NCBI GenBank assembly: GCA_030619185.1
Contig: JAUXBW010000047.1
Coordinates: 1-10,668, forward strand
Reading direction: 5' to 3'
Source of the DNA: Methyloprofundus sp.
GTDB taxonomy: Bacteria > Pseudomonadota > Gammaproteobacteria > Methylococcales > Methylomonadaceae
Length of the DNA: 10,668 nucleotides
Shown: in pieces, positions 3,168 to 10,346 of the stretch
Numbering within the stretch: the first letter of the stretch is position 1
How the letters are laid out: each line of letters starts with the position of its first letter
Position numbers and translations under genes: made by a program
Notes under the pieces: model-generated
The model's database searches: none
Told to the model about the DNA's origin: nothing
Seen by the model: only the letters and a program-made list of their open reading frames with translations

Positions 3168-3581
3168 TCAATCACAGGTTTCAGTGCCAAATGAATCCTT
3201 ATAGCAATTTATCCGTTTACCTGAGCTATCCCGGTAATCTGTATTACCAAAGGAATCAGTTCTCCCTTTGATGACATTGCCATCCTTACCTTGCCAGGCT
3301 TTATTGCCAAAAGAGTCCTCTGCTCCCATAATTTTTCCTGCACTATCCCTGTAGGTGATATTGCCAAAAGAATCCCTGACTCCCGTCATCGTATTTCCCT
3401 TATTGTCTCGCCAGGTTTCATTGCCGGAGGTATCTGTGCGTCCAAACCAGGTATTGCCTTTATTGTCCTGACAGGTTTTGTTGCCAAACGAATCTGTGTT
3501 GCAGCGCATTCCTGCGTTGGCACTGGCACTTAATAATAAACAGCCTAGGACAAGAGGAATAATAAGCGTTGATAATTTCAT
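3168..3581 (-). CDS. secreted DSFGN-repeat protein with cysteine-capped ends (137 residues)
   Basis: The start was chosen at the Met whose upstream AAGGAAAT is well spaced and which opens a clean signal peptide: MKLST, a hydrophobic core, then cleavage after SASANA (residue 23). The frame opens 16 codons earlier, but that would bury the signal. The mature part is almost entirely tandem repeats of about 20 residues with consensus G-x-x-DSFGN-x-x-[WY]-x-D-x-x-G-[NK]. DSFG-type units occur at about 30, 50, 70, 89, 109 and 129. The first and last units have Cys where internal ones have Gly and Trp/Tyr (C27/C37 and C126/C136), suggesting a disulfide at each end of a small beta-rich repeat protein. 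A lipobox at C14 was considered and rejected. The function is unknown; the protein is likely periplasmic or exported. Confidence 0.8.
   Translation of the reverse strand: MKLSTLIIPLVLGCLLLSASANAGMRCNTDSFGNKTCQDNKGNTWFGRTDTSGNETWRDNKGNTMTGVRDSFGNITYRDSAGKIMGAEDSFGNKAWQGKDGNVIKGRTDSFGNTDYRDSSGKRINCYKDSFGTETCD
3184..3495 (-). repeat. 60-bp period tandem repeat inside the secreted protein gene
   Basis: On the + strand, the motif TTGCCAAA followed by GAATC or a close variant recurs near 3183, 3243, 3303, 3360, 3420 and 3480, a spacing of 57-60 bases. It encodes the DSFGN core on the minus strand. Copies differ at several positions, so this is an old amplification kept by protein constraint and not a fresh slippage array. 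Confidence 0.8.
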
Positions 3582-3621
3582 AATTAATTTCCTTTTTTTA
3601 TTGAACTCCATTGCGATATTA

Positions 3622-3641
3622 CCAGTCATTTAAGTGACTGG
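3622..3641. repeat. 7-bp perfect hairpin upstream of the secreted repeat-protein gene
   Basis: CCAGTCA (3622-3628) and TGACTGG (3635-3641) flank a 6-base TTTAAG loop in the gap between the DUF58 stop and the repeat-protein start. On the minus strand it would form about 40 bases before that start. No U-run follows, so it is not an obvious terminator. It may be an operator or an mRNA processing hairpin. Confidence 0.4.
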
Positions 3642-3694: not shown

Positions 3695-4579
3695 CTATCT
3701 CAATACTTCTACAGGCTTTTCGTTACTGGCGCAACGCAATAAGCGGATGTTGAGTTTTTTGGCAAGTACTTGTAGGTGCGCACAATGTTGCTGAAATTTA
3801 TGCTGATAATTCATCATGCGTTGCTTATCTCCCGTATCAACCACGACATCGGTTTTGGTATCGGTAAATCGATAGCGGCCTTTAGCGGGCAACTGACTTT
3901 CCAGGGGATCATAAACCAGAATCATAATAACTTCGCAATGGCGCGCCAGTTTGGTCAGATAATTTTCAATAGTGTGGTTGATACCGCGAAAATCACTGAT
4001 AATATAAACTAGACTCCCGGGCTTTACATGATGGCTTAAGCGTCCCATAACTTGCTCAAAATTAATTGCTGTGTGTCTGGTTTCCGTCTTAACCAGCGCA
4101 TTGAAGAAATGCAAAACAGCCTGCTTGCCATTTTGCGGCTTTAATTCACGACAACTGGTATCGGAAAATATTTGCCCTCCGATCCTGTCACCATGTCGCT
4201 CTGCAACCCAGGCTAATAATCCCGCTAACTTTGCAGCCTGTACCGATTTAAAAACACCGCGCGTAGCAAATTGCATCGATGCCCGGTAATCAACTGAAAT
4301 AAATACCGGGCGCGCTCGTTCTTCACGGAATAATTTAGTATGGGTTTTTCCTGTGCGCGCAGTTACTCGCCAGTCTATACTGCGAATATCATCTCCGGGC
4401 TGGTACATGCGCACCTCATCAAACTCCATACCCCGGCCTCTGGTACGCGATAAATAGCCGCCACTTTGCGGCGCACGAACGCGCGAGCGAAATAACTTTA
4501 ATGAGGCAGCGGGTTTGGCTAGTTTGATTAGCATATCCAGGCTCACGCTCACTAATCCACTGTTGGTTTGATTTTCCAT
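3695..4579 (-). CDS. DUF58 domain-containing protein (MoxR partner)
   Basis: The 294-residue protein carries the DUF58 hallmark GRGMEFDEVRMYQPGDDIR at 48-66 followed by SIDWRVTARTG at 67-77. A von Willebrand A-like fold follows, with a first strand FISVDYRASM (93-102) where the metal-site DxSxS is degenerate (D97-Y-R-A-S), and a second strand VYIISDFRG at 191-199. No membrane helix is evident, so this is the short cytosolic form. DUF58 proteins are almost always encoded beside a MoxR ATPase and are thought to work with it in protein maturation; the substrate is unknown. The usual following VWA and TPR (BatA/BatB-type) genes are missing. The gene is now separated from moxR by a 145-bp insertion, and the only ribosome-site candidate (CTAGG) is supplied by that element's end. 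Confidence 0.92.
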   Translation of the reverse strand: MENQTNSGLVSVSLDMLIKLAKPAASLKLFRSRVRAPQSGGYLSRTRGRGMEFDEVRMYQPGDDIRSIDWRVTARTGKTHTKLFREERARPVFISVDYRASMQFATRGVFKSVQAAKLAGLLAWVAERHGDRIGGQIFSDTSCRELKPQNGKQAVLHFFNALVKTETRHTAINFEQVMGRLSHHVKPGSLVYIISDFRGINHTIENYLTKLARHCEVIMILVYDPLESQLPAKGRYRFTDTKTDVVVDTGDKQRMMNYQHKFQQHCAHLQVLAKKLNIRLLRCASNEKPVEVLR

Positions 4580-4581
4580 TA

Positions 4582-4726
4582 ACCTAGAAACCGCAGTTGA
4601 GCACGGATTTATTCACAAAACCGTGAAGAGGGGTATATTCACCCAGCAGGTGACAAGTATTTGCGTTCATTATGTAATATTCAGTCACTTATAGTGTTTT
4701 ATAGCGGTCAGCTGTGGTTTCTAGGT
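4582..4726. mobile_element. 145-bp MITE-like element with 21-bp terminal inverted repeats and TTA target duplication
   Basis: The left end ACCTAGAAACCGCAGTTGAGC (4582-4602) matches the reverse complement of 4706-4726 at 18 of 21 positions, including an unbroken 11-base tip. The element is flanked on both sides by TTA (4579-4581 and 4727-4729), consistent with a 3-bp target duplication. On the minus strand those copies are the moxR stop TAA and the TAA that overlaps the DUF58 ATG. Deleting the element plus one copy rebuilds CCCTAATGG, an overlapping stop-start. It is too short to encode a transposase, so it would be non-autonomous. The mobilising IS family is not identified. An internal pair CACGG/CCGTG (4602-4606, 4621-4625) could form an extra hairpin. 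Confidence 0.75.
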
Positions 4727-5713
4727 TTAGGGTACAGCAATTCTGGCGATTAATTGCTGAATAAAATCATCACTGCTTATCCCTTCTGCCTCGGCTTCAT
4801 AGGATAAAATGACGCGATGGCGTAATACATCAAATGCCATATCCTGTATATCCTCCGGGGCAACAAAATCTTTACCACTTAACCAGGCTTTGGCGCGGGC
4901 ACATCTGTCTAGCGCAATACTTGCGCGTGGACTGGCTCCATATTGCGACCAATTGGCTAAATCGTCTCCATAGGCTCCCGGGTTGCGTGTTGCAAGAATG
5001 ATTTGCAACAGGTAATCTTCCAGGTTGTCTGCCATATAAATATTAAGTACTTCCTGGCGTGCGCTAAAAAGGCTCTCTTGACTAATGGCTGACGAAACTG
5101 TTTTTTCCGTTGCATGACTCTGCATTGCTTCATTACGCGCCAGATGCAGAATAAGTTTTTCATCTTCGGCCTGCGGGTAATCAATTTTTACATGCAATAA
5201 AAAGCGGTCTAATTGCGCTTCAGGCAAAGGATAGGTACCTTCTTGCTCAATCGGGTTTTGCGTCGCCATCACCAAAAACAAAGGTGGTAATGGATAAGTC
5301 GTACCTCCCACCGTAATTTGCCTTTCAGCCATGGCTTCTAATAAGGCAGCCTGAACTTTAGCGGGGGAGCGGTTAATCTCATCAGCCAGCACCAGATTAT
5401 GAAATAAGGGGCCTTTCTGAAACTCAAAGCTACCCTGTTGCGGACGATAAATTTCTGTTCCGGTCAAATCAGCAGGTAATAAATCCGGGGTAAATTGCAC
5501 TCGATGAAAATCGGCTTGTATGCCTTTGCTCAATGCGTTGATCGCACGGGTTTTTGCCAGACCGGGTGCTCCTTCGACCAGAATATGCCCGTCGGCAAGT
5601 AGGGCAATTAACATACGCTCAACTAAAATTTCCTGACCAATGATTTGCTCACTGATAGTGTTTTTCAATTGTTTTAAGGCGATAAAACTATCGCTAGAAC
5701 TTGCTTCTGACAT
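4727..5713 (-). CDS. MoxR-family AAA+ ATPase
   Basis: This 328-residue cytosolic ATPase has all MoxR motifs. Walker A is GAPGLAKT (48-55), Walker B is LVLADEINR with D111 and E112, and sensor 1 is in ATQNP (N153). The arginine finger region is LPEAQLDRF (R170), and the lid domain has sensor 2 in GASPRAS (R263). MoxR proteins act as chaperone-like remodelers in metal insertion, stress response or cell-envelope assembly, usually with DUF58 and VWA proteins. Here the only partner is the DUF58 gene downstream on the same strand. The start at 5713 gives a normal N-terminus, but the ribosome site is weak. Upstream is an AT-rich divergent region shared with the tandem membrane-protein genes. The stop codon TAA is part of the target duplication of the inserted element. 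Confidence 0.95.
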   Translation of the reverse strand: MSEASSSDSFIALKQLKNTISEQIIGQEILVERMLIALLADGHILVEGAPGLAKTRAINALSKGIQADFHRVQFTPDLLPADLTGTEIYRPQQGSFEFQKGPLFHNLVLADEINRSPAKVQAALLEAMAERQITVGGTTYPLPPLFLVMATQNPIEQEGTYPLPEAQLDRFLLHVKIDYPQAEDEKLILHLARNEAMQSHATEKTVSSAISQESLFSARQEVLNIYMADNLEDYLLQIILATRNPGAYGDDLANWSQYGASPRASIALDRCARAKAWLSGKDFVAPEDIQDMAFDVLRHRVILSYEAEAEGISSDDFIQQLIARIAVP

Positions 5714-5946: not shown

Positions 5947-6699
5947 ATGTGTTGGAGTGGTGAAGCATCAGCGGTTTTAGCAACCGTTGGCCTGGGAACG
6001 GCAGCGTATGTTGCAATAAAAGGGGAATCTAAAGAACTATGGATTCCATTAACTTATTTTGCATTGATGGAGCTATTGCAAGCGGCTACCTATGTTTATA
6101 TAGACGATTGTAGCTCACCGCAGAACCAGATTCTCACGCTGTTTGGCTATGTCCATATCGCCTTTCAGCCATTTTTCGTCAATATGGTGGCAATGTACTT
6201 TATTCCCGAAAGTGTCAAATTAAAAATAAGAACAACTGTCTATACTCTCTGCGCAATGGCTGCTCTGGCAATGATTGTTAAAATGTTTCCCTTTGCGTGG
6301 GCGGGGCTTTGTAACATTGGTCAGGAAGGTTTTTGTGGCGATCAGATATGCTCCGTTTCTGGTGCATGGCACATTGCATGGCAGATGCCTTTAAATGGCC
6401 TTATGTCCGACCCTGTTTCATGGTTCCCCGGTTTTGAATGGGGCTTGCATGGTTTTGTATATATTTTATCGGCTTTCTATTTACCTTTTATATATGGCTC
6501 GTGGCGCTTTGTTGCCTTTCATTATGTTGTAGGCCCCTGGATTTCAGATGTCACTACCGATGATCCAAATGAGTATTCAGCAGTATGGTGTTTATTCTCG
6601 ATTGCTTTATGCGTATCGGTGATTAAAACGCCTATCAGAAAATATTTACATGTTACAAAATGGCCTTTTTATAAGCGCACGGTGAGCGATTCTTTATAA
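5947..6699 (+). CDS. multi-pass membrane protein, probable DUF5765 family, copy 1
   Basis: The start has a good AAGAGG ribosome site and the diagnostic N-terminus MCWSGEAS. The 250-residue product has about six or seven hydrophobic segments (about 9-25, 31-53, 62-86, 96-120, 166-186, 187-200, 211-228). Conserved patches are MELLQA (41-46), GYVHIAFQPFF (67-77), GAWHIAW (139-145), DDPNE (205-209) and AVWCLFSIAL (212-221). These match my memory of DUF5765, a family of unknown function. Cysteines at 2, 55, 102, 122, 130, 135, 215 and 222 and histidines at 70, 142, 168 and 192 are shared with copy 2 and could bind a metal or heme or form disulfides (inference). It is separated from copy 2 by 38 bases and is likely in the same operon. 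Confidence 0.75.
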   Translation: MCWSGEASAVLATVGLGTAAYVAIKGESKELWIPLTYFALMELLQAATYVYIDDCSSPQNQILTLFGYVHIAFQPFFVNMVAMYFIPESVKLKIRTTVYTLCAMAALAMIVKMFPFAWAGLCNIGQEGFCGDQICSVSGAWHIAWQMPLNGLMSDPVSWFPGFEWGLHGFVYILSAFYLPFIYGSWRFVAFHYVVGPWISDVTTDDPNEYSAVWCLFSIALCVSVIKTPIRKYLHVTKWPFYKRTVSDSL

Positions 6700-6737: not shown

Positions 6738-7490
6738 ATGTGCTGGAGTGGTGAAGCATCTGGAGTATTGGCAGCCGTTGGGCTGGGCACGGCTGCCTAT
6801 GTCGCGTTAAAAAATGAGTCAAAAGAGCTTTGGATACCATTAACATTTTTCGCTTTAATGGAGTTATTACAGGCGGCAACCTATGTTTATATAGATGAAT
6901 GTAACTCGCCGGTTAATCAGGTGCTCACGCTATTTGGCTATCTACACATTGCTTTCCAGCCTTTTTTTATTAATATGGTAGCCATGTACTTTATCCCGGA
7001 GAGCGTTAAACTAAAAATCAGAACCACCGTTTATACTTTATGTGCCGTTGCGGCACTGGCCATGATTGTTAAGATGATGCCTTTTGTTTGGGCCGGACTC
7101 TGTGTTATTGGTACAGAAGCTGTTTGTGGTACGCAAATATGTTCAACTTCAGGAGCATGGCATATCGCCTGGCAGATACCGTTAAACGATATTATGTCGC
7201 CTCCCGTTTCCTGGTTACCTGGATTTGAAGGGGGATTACATGGCTTTGTTTATCTCTGGATCGGGTTTTATCTACCTTTTTTATATGGCTCGTATCGTTT
7301 TGTATTATTCCACTGTATGGTTGGCCCCTGGATATCAGATGCCCTGACTGATGACCCAAATGAATTTGCTGCTGTCTGGTGTTTATTTTCTATCGCACTC
7401 TGCGTATCGATTATTAAGTCGCCGATTAGAAAATATTTACATGTTACTAGATGGCCTTTTTATCACCGCACCGTTAGTGACTCCTTGTAG
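6738..7490 (+). CDS. multi-pass membrane protein, probable DUF5765 family, copy 2
   Basis: This paralogue of the preceding gene has exactly the same length and aligns without gaps. By eye about 43 of 250 residues differ (about 83% identity). Differences are mostly conservative within helices (Ile/Leu/Val, Phe/Tyr) and cluster in the loop at 123-137 and around 173-203. The MCWSGEAS start, MELLQAATYVYI, GYLHIAFQPFF, GAWHIAW, DDPNE and the C-terminal HRTVSDSL are retained, with all eight cysteines plus an extra one at 194. Many silent differences exist, so the duplication is not recent and both copies seem to be under purifying selection. AAGGGG about 7 bases before the ATG is a strong ribosome site, so it can be translated independently on a shared mRNA. 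The function is unknown. Confidence 0.75.
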   Translation: MCWSGEASGVLAAVGLGTAAYVALKNESKELWIPLTFFALMELLQAATYVYIDECNSPVNQVLTLFGYLHIAFQPFFINMVAMYFIPESVKLKIRTTVYTLCAVAALAMIVKMMPFVWAGLCVIGTEAVCGTQICSTSGAWHIAWQIPLNDIMSPPVSWLPGFEGGLHGFVYLWIGFYLPFLYGSYRFVLFHCMVGPWISDALTDDPNEFAAVWCLFSIALCVSIIKSPIRKYLHVTRWPFYHRTVSDSL

Positions 7491-7732: not shown

Positions 7733-8512
7733 ATGCCTTTTTTATCCCGCAAGTGTCAGATATTACTGACATCATCTGTATTAAGCTTAGCCTCGGCTTC
7801 CCTCTTTGCTGACACTCTCTCTAGTACCATACAAACTGAAAGCGCGACCCATAAAAGTGCTATTAAATCGCAAAAGAACATCGATAACCTGGATGATCGC
7901 ACACGCAAGATGCTAGAGCAATACCGCTCTGCTACACGACAAACAAAGACATTACTTACTTATAATGCGCATTTAAAGGCATTACTGGACTCTCAGGAAG
8001 AAGAAAAAGCCTCATTTGCACAGCAATTAGAGCAAATAGAAACGACACAGCGTGAAATAGTGCCACTCATATTAAATATGCAAGAGAGTCTGGCTCAATT
8101 TGTACAACTAGATCTACCTTTTTTACCCGAAGAGCGCCAGCAACGTGTTGCACGCTTAAAAGACATGATGACCCGGGCGGATGTCACTAACGCAGAAAAA
8201 TTTCGCCGCATTATTGAAGCCTATCAAATTGAGAATGATTACGGCAACACTATAGAAGCCTATCGCGCTGATATAGAATTAGCAGGTAAAACCAGCTCGG
8301 TCGATTTTTTACGCCTTGGCCGGGTTGCTCTTTACTATCAACGCCTAGATGGCAGTGAAACCGGTTTCTGGAATGACACGGAAAAACGCTGGGAAACTTT
8401 GCCGACTGAATATCGTAACTCTATCCGTCAGGGGTTACGCATAGCTCGTAAAGAAACTGCCCCTGACTTATTAACCTTACCGATTCCAACTGTAGCAGAG
8501 GGTGTGCAATGA
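7733..8512 (+). CDS. periplasmic DUF3450 protein of a TonB2-type system
   Basis: The 259-residue protein starts at ATG 7733. An upstream in-frame TTG at 7697 would add 12 residues in front of the signal peptide. The leader has K7 in its basic n-region, a hydrophobic core and likely cleavage after SASLFA (residue 26). Residues 45-125 are Glu/Gln/Lys rich and probably coiled coil. The DUF3450 signatures are DLPFLPEER (127-135), EKFRRIIEAYQIENDYG (155-171) and FLRLGRVALYYQ (192-203). These proteins are encoded with TtpC/ExbB proteins and presumably act in the periplasm to help couple the inner-membrane motor to outer-membrane transport; the exact role is unknown. The stop overlaps the next start as ATGA. 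The ribosome site is weak. No Fur box is seen. Confidence 0.88.
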   Translation: MPFLSRKCQILLTSSVLSLASASLFADTLSSTIQTESATHKSAIKSQKNIDNLDDRTRKMLEQYRSATRQTKTLLTYNAHLKALLDSQEEEKASFAQQLEQIETTQREIVPLILNMQESLAQFVQLDLPFLPEERQQRVARLKDMMTRADVTNAEKFRRIIEAYQIENDYGNTIEAYRADIELAGKTSSVDFLRLGRVALYYQRLDGSETGFWNDTEKRWETLPTEYRNSIRQGLRIARKETAPDLLTLPIPTVAEGVQ

Positions 8513-9834
8513 GATTAATTAGCAGTTTTTTCCTCACCCTTTTATTGTCTAATAGCGTATGGGCTGCTCATCAGGGGTTAGACCAGTTATTGCGCGATGT
8601 TAAACAAAGACAAAGCGTCGAGCACAAGATTAACAAAGTCCGTGAGGCAGAATTTCTTGCAGAAAAACAAACCCGGCAACAATTACTTAAAACTGCTCAA
8701 GTCGAACTTGCTCAACAAGAGGCGTTGAGCAAGCAGTTAAAAGTACATTTGGAGAGTAATGAAGAGTTACTCAGTAAATTTGAAACACAATTAAAAGAAC
8801 GTAGTGGCGAACTAGGTGAATTATTTGGTGTGGCAAGGCAAGCCGCTGGTGATTTAAGTGCAGATTTACTTAACTCAATAGTCTCAGCGCAATACTCTGG
8901 TCGTAGTGAAGCATTAAACACCATGATTGAGAGCAAAGCATTGCCCACCATAAATCAGCTGGAAAACCTGTGGTTTACTTTGCTACAAGAAATGACTGAA
9001 TCAGGTAAGGTTGTTCGTTTTAAACGAGAAATACAAGTTTCAGGTAATAGGCAAGAGGCTGAAGTTACTCGTATCGGAGCATTTAATGCAATTGCAAATA
9101 ACAGCTACTTACGCTATTCACCTGAAACAAATATTTTAGTCAGTTTAACGCGTCAGCCAGCTAGCAAATATCTTGATTTACTTGATTCATTTAGCAATGA
9201 TACAACGGGGCTAGCTCCCATTGCAATTGATCCAACACGCGGCGTTATGCTGAGTATGCTTATTCAAACACCAAATGCACAAGAGCGCATTCAACAAGGT
9301 GGGGCGGTTGGTTATATTATTTTGGCTTTAGGGGCGATAGGCTTTCTGTATGCCTTATTACGCCTGATTATTCTGACTATCACAGGCCATAAAATGAAGC
9401 GGCAAATACACGCTGCCGCTGCCTCAGAAGATAATCCCTTAGGTCGCGTATTATCAGCGACAGAGCAGAGTTCAGCGCAAGATAACGCTACATTAGAATT
9501 AATACTGGATGAGGCGATTACCCGTGAAGTGCCTAGTTTGGAAAAGGGGCTATCCATGATCAAGCTATTTGCCGCTGTTGCGCCATTATTAGGCTTGCTT
9601 GGAACGGTAACAGGCATGATCTCCACCTTTCAATCCATTAGCTTGTTTGGAACCGGCGACCCTAAACTTATGGCTGATGGTATTTCTCAAGCTCTGGTAA
9701 CCACAATGTTAGGTTTAAGTGTTGCCATTCCTTTATTATTTCTACACAATTTAGTCGCTTCACGCAGTAAAACATTAGTGCAGATTCTGGATGAACAAAG
9801 TGCTGGCATCATGAGCCGTCGTGCAGGAAAATAA
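8509..9834 (+). CDS. ttpC: TtpC-like MotA/TolQ/ExbB proton channel protein with periplasmic coiled coil
   Basis: The 441 residues match the long ExbB-like TtpC architecture. An N-terminal signal peptide (cleavage near SVWA, residue 19) is followed by a periplasmic coiled coil (about 25-105). A periplasmic domain extends to about 260, and three membrane helices lie at about 267-290, 352-375 and 394-415. The MotA/TolQ/ExbB core has APLLGLLGTVTGMI (358-371) and GISQALVTTMLGLSVAIPLL (391-410). In Vibrio, TtpC joins ExbB2, ExbD2 and TonB2 to energise outer-membrane iron-siderophore receptors. The start overlaps the DUF3450 stop by four bases (ATGA), and the stop overlaps the exbB start by one base (TAATG), so the three genes form a tightly coupled operon. 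The symbol is by architecture and context, not by experiment. Confidence 0.9.
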   Translation: MRLISSFFLTLLLSNSVWAAHQGLDQLLRDVKQRQSVEHKINKVREAEFLAEKQTRQQLLKTAQVELAQQEALSKQLKVHLESNEELLSKFETQLKERSGELGELFGVARQAAGDLSADLLNSIVSAQYSGRSEALNTMIESKALPTINQLENLWFTLLQEMTESGKVVRFKREIQVSGNRQEAEVTRIGAFNAIANNSYLRYSPETNILVSLTRQPASKYLDLLDSFSNDTTGLAPIAIDPTRGVMLSMLIQTPNAQERIQQGGAVGYIILALGAIGFLYALLRLIILTITGHKMKRQIHAAAASEDNPLGRVLSATEQSSAQDNATLELILDEAITREVPSLEKGLSMIKLFAAVAPLLGLLGTVTGMISTFQSISLFGTGDPKLMADGISQALVTTMLGLSVAIPLLFLHNLVASRSKTLVQILDEQSAGIMSRRAGK

Positions 9835-10346
9835 TGGAATTTATAGAAGATATTCGTAACTTTCTTTACTCCGGTGGCGATATTTTATGGCTTATTTTAG
9901 GGGTTGCCATCTGCTTATGGTGTCTGATTGTTGAGCGCTTTATTTTTTTCAGGCAAAATTACCCAGACTTGAGAGCTAGCTGTCTAGATCGATGGGAGCA
10001 ACGTGATGATAAAACATCTGCCTATGCATTATTTATTCGCCAGGAGTTTATTTCTAACGTAGAAATCCAGATGAACCAAGGCGTGTCGATAATAAAATTA
10101 CTTATCGCTTTATGTCCTTTGCTAGGTCTATTAGGTACGGTAACCGGTATGATTCATGTGTTTGATGTCATGGCGATAACCGGCTCGGGTAATGCTCGCG
10201 CCATGGCGGCGGGTATATCTAAAGCAACAATAACTACGATGGCTGGTATGGTGATTGCTATTTCTGGATTATATTTGAATAAACTGATTGAAGAACGTAT
10301 AAGTGATGAATCCCATCATCTTGCAGATTTATTAAAATATCATTAA
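9834..10346 (+). CDS. exbB: ExbB-like biopolymer transport protein (ExbB2 type)
   Basis: This compact 170-residue inner-membrane protein has a first helix at about 16-37, ending in the conserved ERF (34-36). The second helix has CPLLGLLGTVTGMI at 94-107, and the third has GISKATITTMAGMVIAISGLYL at 127-148. Conserved channel threonines are visible (T102, T104, T132, T134, T135). It would form the proton channel with ExbD to power a TonB-like protein. An AGGA ribosome site lies within the end of the previous gene, with a one-base TAATG overlap. The length is normal for ExbB2, so the gene is intact. The expected exbD, tonB and TPR genes do not follow, and 10347-10668 has no gene of size. Confidence 0.92.
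   Translation: MEFIEDIRNFLYSGGDILWLILGVAICLWCLIVERFIFFRQNYPDLRASCLDRWEQRDDKTSAYALFIRQEFISNVEIQMNQGVSIIKLLIALCPLLGLLGTVTGMIHVFDVMAITGSGNARAMAAGISKATITTMAGMVIAISGLYLNKLIEERISDESHHLADLLKYH

Follow-up and report, generated by a model that had tools for sequence, protein, structure and literature searches.

A MITE is a short non-coding DNA element that is mobilised by a transposase encoded elsewhere. ERIC and Correia elements duplicate TA, whereas the family described here has a 5-bp WTNAW duplication. As far as the available text describes them, ERIC and Correia elements resemble this family in being short inverted-repeat elements within transcribed regions. ERIC is reported to have an orientation-dependent effect on operon mRNA, namely cleavage, and the same pneumococcal paper treats frames encoded by BOX elements (PMC3049150). 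Cleavage by RNase III is described for Correia elements (PMC3049150, PMC10969869). The Chunjie MITE of Geobacter uraniireducens is 178-235 bp long, has inverted ends and direct repeats, and occurs in 38 copies, one of which lies within a phosphate uptake operon; the review concerned also covers MITEs in operons (PMC10969869). Size, inverted ends, direct repeats and operon location are shared with the present family. In contrast, Chunjie belongs to another genus, and its available description, which is the sole basis of the comparison, contains neither stop-start targeting nor an orientation rule. QMITE1 and QMITE2 are, like the present family, gammaproteobacterial MITEs, and QMITE2 of Coxiella burnetii lies at the 3' end of a gene, where it supplies C-terminal residues and the stop codon in one strain (PMC5896051). 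The accessible account of MITEAba12 gives it no orientation preference (PMC6382973). A literature search mostly of papers outside subscription journals, several of them available in part, found no description of an orientation or stop-codon rule at stop-start junctions, and no paper treating both Methyloprofundus and MITEs.

The window, which is the whole 10,668-nucleotide stretch analysed, comes from a Methyloprofundus-type methanotroph with a host genome of 1.7 Mb that is 66% complete. A moxR gene and a DUF58 gene are intact in it at the protein level despite a 143-bp non-coding insert at their junction. The features of the locus are as follows.

3695..4579, minus strand: DUF58 protein gene, the downstream partner (ORF list; Pfam DUF58).
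4578..4582, plus strand: ATTAA, left-hand repeat of the 5-bp target duplication, now decayed (family flank comparison; flanks of the same-site copy in genome G001 identical).
4583..4725, minus strand: MITE copy, a 143-bp deletion form of a family of about 241 bp, with the family minus strand reading in the moxR-DUF58 direction (genome matches, alignment).
4583..4602, plus strand: left terminal inverted repeat, CCTAGAAACCGCAGTTGAGC, on the DUF58 side (inverted-repeat match).
4584..4670, minus strand: open frame of 28 codons in the element, whose TAG stop lies in the terminal CTAGG and precedes the DUF58 ATG by 4 nt.
4706..4725, minus strand: right terminal inverted repeat, on the moxR side (inverted-repeat match).
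4726..4730, plus strand: TTTAG, right-hand repeat of the 5-bp target duplication, now decayed, which includes the moxR stop (family flank comparison).
4727..5713, minus strand: MoxR-type AAA ATPase gene, the upstream partner (ORF list; Pfam AAA_3, bpMoxR).

The original prediction described 21-bp inverted repeats at 4582-4602 and 4706-4726, and both the coordinates and the match of 18 of 21 positions are right. Mononucleotide shuffling of the 700 bp around the site, repeated 20 times, never produced a 21-bp inverted pair with at least 18 matches. The 145 bp that it placed between TTA at 4579-4581, which overlaps the DUF58 ATG, and TTA at 4727-4729, which is the minus-strand stop codon of moxR, were also read correctly. 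The element proper begins at CCTAG throughout the family, and the window copy therefore comprises 4583-4725 (143 bp) with the flanking 5-mers ATTAA and TTTAG. As a single strand, 4580-4730 folds much better than 200 dinucleotide shuffles (z -5.5).

Other parts of the window contain two adjacent, closely similar genes of 250 amino acids (5947-6699 and 6738-7490; Pfam DUF5765), which form a tandem duplication, and two adjoining genes of the MotA/TolQ/ExbB type (8509-10346), the first with a long N-terminal extension and the pair joined by a one-base stop/start overlap at 9834. A small secreted-looking protein with DSFGN-type repeats and no Pfam match is encoded at 3168-3629.

The window copy is a decayed, internally deleted member of a dispersed MITE family. 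At full length the family measures about 241 bp, with the ends CCTAGAAA...CAGTTG. Full-length copies are mostly 230-242 bp long, as short as befits a MITE, and contain no transposase gene. Their ends are inverted, each matching at 13-17 of 17 positions in the 53 paired copies (the cut-off for paired ends was 13/17), and the family has dispersed copies, empty orthologous sites and a target-site duplication. The expected non-autonomous inverted-repeat element with dispersed copies is thus borne out, with 65 copies collected in the clade and several in the window's own genome. This set joins two collections and omits some of the 107 matches, 56 of which are complete. In the own genome, 27 matches were obtained at E <= 1, among them the window itself and multiple fragments of a single copy. 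Four other places there match 114-126 of 151 bases at 82-88%, besides weaker ones, and three of the four are parts of copies of about 240 bp. The alignment comprised 46 of the 53 paired-end elements and left out copies of 86, 341, 383 and 417 bp and three elements of a second, 161-bp family. The window copy lacks about 98 of the 241 bp, a gap shared by four copies of 144-145 bp in G001; other short forms are three copies of 157-158 bp in G009 and G016.

The relatives that carry a name comprise Methyloprofundus genomes together with methanotrophic symbionts of Bathymodiolus platifrons and B. japonicus. The full-length element was matched in 6 of 18 genomes of the genus: G000 (the window's genome), G001, G006, G009, G016 and, weakly, G010. 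End motifs on the two strands number 29+30 in G000, 25+30 in G001, 26+27 in G006, 36+41 in G009 and 14+15 in G016, while a reversed-pattern control gave 0-3 per strand in the same five genomes. Across the wider bacterial family, a sample of 151 genomes in 29 genera gave matches at E <= 1e-8 in 12 genomes, which belong to 4 of the genera. G019, from another genus, has 41 matches (150 candidates, 40 scored); leaving out the query there are 40, and 39 of these are 88-98% identical.

The second MITE family is 161 bp long, nearly palindromic, and has related ends (CCTAGAAAAATCAGTTG). Its full-length copies number 14 in stretches of G006 (L349, L352, L355-L359, L361-L366, L368) and two in G016, and the window's genome has three (L168:1698-1858, L169:2778-2938, L166:3636-3796) with exact 5-bp duplications. 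A separate repeat of about 57-70 bp lies downstream of 2647 in L111 (query bases about 384-452), with dozens of near-identical matches listed in G001 and more than 10 in G006.

The family duplicates a 5-bp WTNAW target, not 3 bp. In 26 of the 65 copies the two flanking 5-mers are the same, and in 48 of 65 they agree at four or more positions, whereas control offsets of 5, 10, 20 and 40 bases outward gave 0/65 identical pairs at each. The 26 exact sites comprise 17 ATNAT, eight TTNAA and one other. The 3-bp duplication that had been expected around the copies was a truncated view of this target. A transposon that duplicates 3 bp, TTA or TAA, would fit the window flanks, where TTA is repeated exactly, as it is around the G001 copy; such a type is nevertheless very improbable, as among the 28 copies that have one or two flank differences the mismatches fall at every one of the five positions (9, 4, 7, 7 and 7) and exact 5-bp duplications prevail in the young copies of G019 (22/28). 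PIF/Harbinger-like elements have such a 3-bp TTA/TAA duplication, and membership in that group does not fit the 5-bp duplication of the family.

IS1380-family elements have CCTAG... ends and duplications of 4-5 bp, and so resemble the present family in terminal bases and duplication length. They differ in that 0 of 30 IS1380 loci (NF033539 model) have paired ends of this kind, with a single good end at one of them, L188; a match to this model over its cut-off occurs in 2 of 18 genomes. An IS1380 origin is not supported: none of these 30 loci has an IS1380 transposase flanked by the family ends. The search for an autonomous transposon with matching ends found none. A loose pair scan of 30 DDE_Tnp_1 loci gave no convincing end pair among the matches listed, 55 viral stretches with one end motif gave no convincing transposase near it, and a plasmid search gave no match. 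Inverted end pairs 0.7-3.5 kb apart with at most one mismatch, a limit at which diverged ends are missed, were not seen by eye in G001, G006 or G009. G000 has one such pair (C122:2752-3995, 1,244 bp), a gene-sized stretch between MITEs of the main and the 161-bp families.

Stop-start junctions such as TAATG meet the WTNAW target exactly, and the duplication restores both the upstream stop and the downstream ATG. In the reconstructed empty sites, the last two bases of the duplication are the AT of the downstream start codon ATG at eight loci, L028 (the window), L093, L095, L112, L146, L153, L159 and L160; L028, L093 and L160 are TAATG overlaps, and L112 and L153 are ATGA overlaps. The upstream protein is unchanged in 16 of 19 tight-junction copies, where the stop precedes the element. 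QMITE2, as far as its description is available, extends its protein by 33 residues and in this differs from the present family. At the ATGA sites L112 and L153, the tip CCTAG or CCTAA gives a stop, and the upstream protein becomes one residue longer. The tail of the upstream protein is altered by the insertion at L100, one of the 19.

Landing at stop-start junctions recurs, and the family shows an unusually clear operon-orientation rule. At tight co-directional junctions, with a spacer of up to 60 nt, 19 of 19 copies have the family minus strand as mRNA, compared with 12 of 26 at looser co-directional sites (p = 6e-5; 65 copies). Without three doubtful rows the count is 16/16, and with one copy per same-site pair it is 14/14 (Fisher p = 5e-4 against the same 12/26). 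L163 was added manually to the tight set, its upstream gene being below the 80-codon limit, and doubt attaches to L141, where a frame runs through the site, and to L111, where the downstream gene is unclear. A first count, which gave 14/14 at 40 nt, 14/14 at 80 nt, 16/20 at 150 nt and 21/31 overall, preceded the choice of the 60-nt limit. A second count by spacer gave 13/13 at 0-60 nt, 4/10 at 61-200 nt and 8/15 above 200 nt. Gene calls were ORF-based, frames that reach a flank edge being counted as genes, and the 19 tight rows were rechecked. Outside the genus, three tight sites are available: one in G140 follows the rule, and of two in G019 one follows and one, with a 49-nt spacer, opposes it. 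These two are the only tight co-directional sites among the 28 copies of G019 (30 of the 41 matches had loci, and two partial ones were dropped). The orientation rule at tight co-directional junctions is new here.

The DUF58 locus was found in 17 genomes of the genus, of which 15 are without the insert and two, the window's genome and G001, are filled. The empty junction was predicted to be a bare TAATG, and this is present in eight of the 17; the remaining empty loci are six ATGA-type overlaps and one short spacer. The 15 empty loci and the multi-copy family argue against a single-copy spacer shared by all relatives. Uninterrupted counterparts exist for 11 of 18 query blocks. Ten are in other genomes and represent nine junctions, L095 and L159 being one, and the eleventh, L138, is found within repeated copies inside G009. 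The spacer itself differs in the counterparts of L112, L115, L163 and L005, yet the element is absent from them. The copy at L138:2491-2730 lies within sequence that is repeated at 91-92% in at least 18 places of G009, and this host sequence is probably another mobile element.

A second junction, at ATAATG, is filled in two genomes in the same orientation: L095:2500-2740 in G001 holds 241 bp and L159:2500-2657 in G016 holds 158 bp, while the junction is empty in G000, G006, G009 and G014. Both copies have exact duplications, they are of different forms, and the element tree, which is weakly resolved, does not place them as sisters. A double insertion is the likelier reading at this junction.

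The original prediction took the window insertion to be recent, and this part did not hold. The flanks ATTAA and TTTAG match at 3 of 5 positions, a decay which indicates that the insertion is not recent; the copy is a deletion form, and G001 is filled at the same site. The G001 copy is 238 bp long, has the same orientation and has identical altered flanks (CTAAA...TTAAT). Such shared flanks point to one event, an old ancestral insertion (or one passed on by recombination) that was later lost in G006 and in the G009/G016 line, and the two elements are also sisters in the element tree (support 76). The low divergence of the elements, 12% over 126 bases against 38-58% at third codon positions of the flanking genes, points with the gene tree to two events. 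In the moxR+DUF58 tree, G000+G006 (99) are split from G001+G009+G016 (95), so that a single origin needs two precise losses. The comparison of flanking genes between G000 and G001 shows no visible local recombination tract, and the L095/L159 junction was itself probably hit twice. A single insertion at the DUF58 locus is a serious possibility, somewhat short of an even chance.

The orientation rule could also stem from target asymmetry at insertion instead of selection, since stop-start junctions are themselves asymmetric (xTNATG). Away from tight junctions, however, the 18 sites with an exact duplication have an ATG after it five times on each strand, and TTA and TAA cores are balanced outside tight junctions (15 and 14), which makes this origin unlikely. 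Even less probable is that the element has been domesticated, its structured RNA serving as a leader or attenuator by which the MoxR:DUF58 ratio is set. This reading would agree with the precise placement between the two partners, seen in two genomes, with two-sided change at 8 of 62 consensus pairs, and with 26 of 32 copies in which the plus-strand hairpin is better preserved than in random mutants (mean -9.5 kcal/mol, p = 1e-4), a test that counts related copies as independent so that common ancestry inflates the signal. The hairpin signal is missing in the 19 copies of G009 (p = 0.29), the element is absent from the locus in 15 of 17 genomes of the genus, the window, the only sequence scanned against Rfam, has no match at the gathering threshold, and terminator-like sites are absent from 4500-4800. 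As causes of orientation, neither a promoter nor a terminator is supported: in two copies, consensus scans gave one and two promoter-like sites, where 0.7 and 0.8 would be expected, and no terminator. The observations are best explained, with high confidence, by a MITE family with 5-bp WTNAW targets at stop-start junctions, the other orientation of which is probably purged from tight operons.

Under this explanation of purging, the element would insert in both orientations, and the reverse one would be lost from tight operons because of the more stable plus-strand hairpin, less favourable frames within the operon mRNA, or both. The plus-strand RNA is more stable than the minus-strand RNA in 46 of 52 full-length copies (means -87 and -76 kcal/mol), and also in 9 of 9 copies from other genera. 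The longest open frame of the whole consensus lies on the minus strand, has 62 codons and ends in the TAG of the terminal CTAGG. This frame reaches the end of the element in 19/19 tight-junction copies against 36/46 other copies (p = 0.03). The plus strand has a frame of 53 codons too, and the reading-frame argument is therefore weak alone. In 36 copies, synonymous changes in the element frame number 56 against 64 expected, and nonsense changes five against 6.6. Counts are close to expectation in all six frames, and selection on an element-encoded peptide was not seen. The peptide appears to evolve neutrally, and the frame counts, if at all, as an open frame.

In the retained orientation, ribosomes could translate the element frame and terminate a few bases short of the following start codon, and expression of the downstream gene may then be partly kept. 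The original prediction proposed that the insertion uncoupled the two genes and possibly changed the MoxR:DUF58 ratio, and both effects are hypothetical. In the window the frame stops 4 nt before the DUF58 ATG, so that re-initiation at DUF58 could persist; no clear ribosome site was seen by eye before the 28-codon frame. Judged from the sequence, the element probably makes translation of DUF58 rely on a new leader. The family may, tentatively, be an 'operon-compatible' MITE, in which the WTNAW target and the stop of the CCTAG tip would leave both proteins with little or no change, the strand read as mRNA would be open and weakly structured, one orientation would survive, and the same junctions would be hit again across species.

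The family illustrates how mobile DNA multiplies without gene disruption. Within tight operons, its near-strict orientation can be read as a mark left by selection on mRNA structure or on the reading frame. More than 12 tight operon junctions, several of them with empty and filled alleles, form a natural series for testing coupling and polarity.
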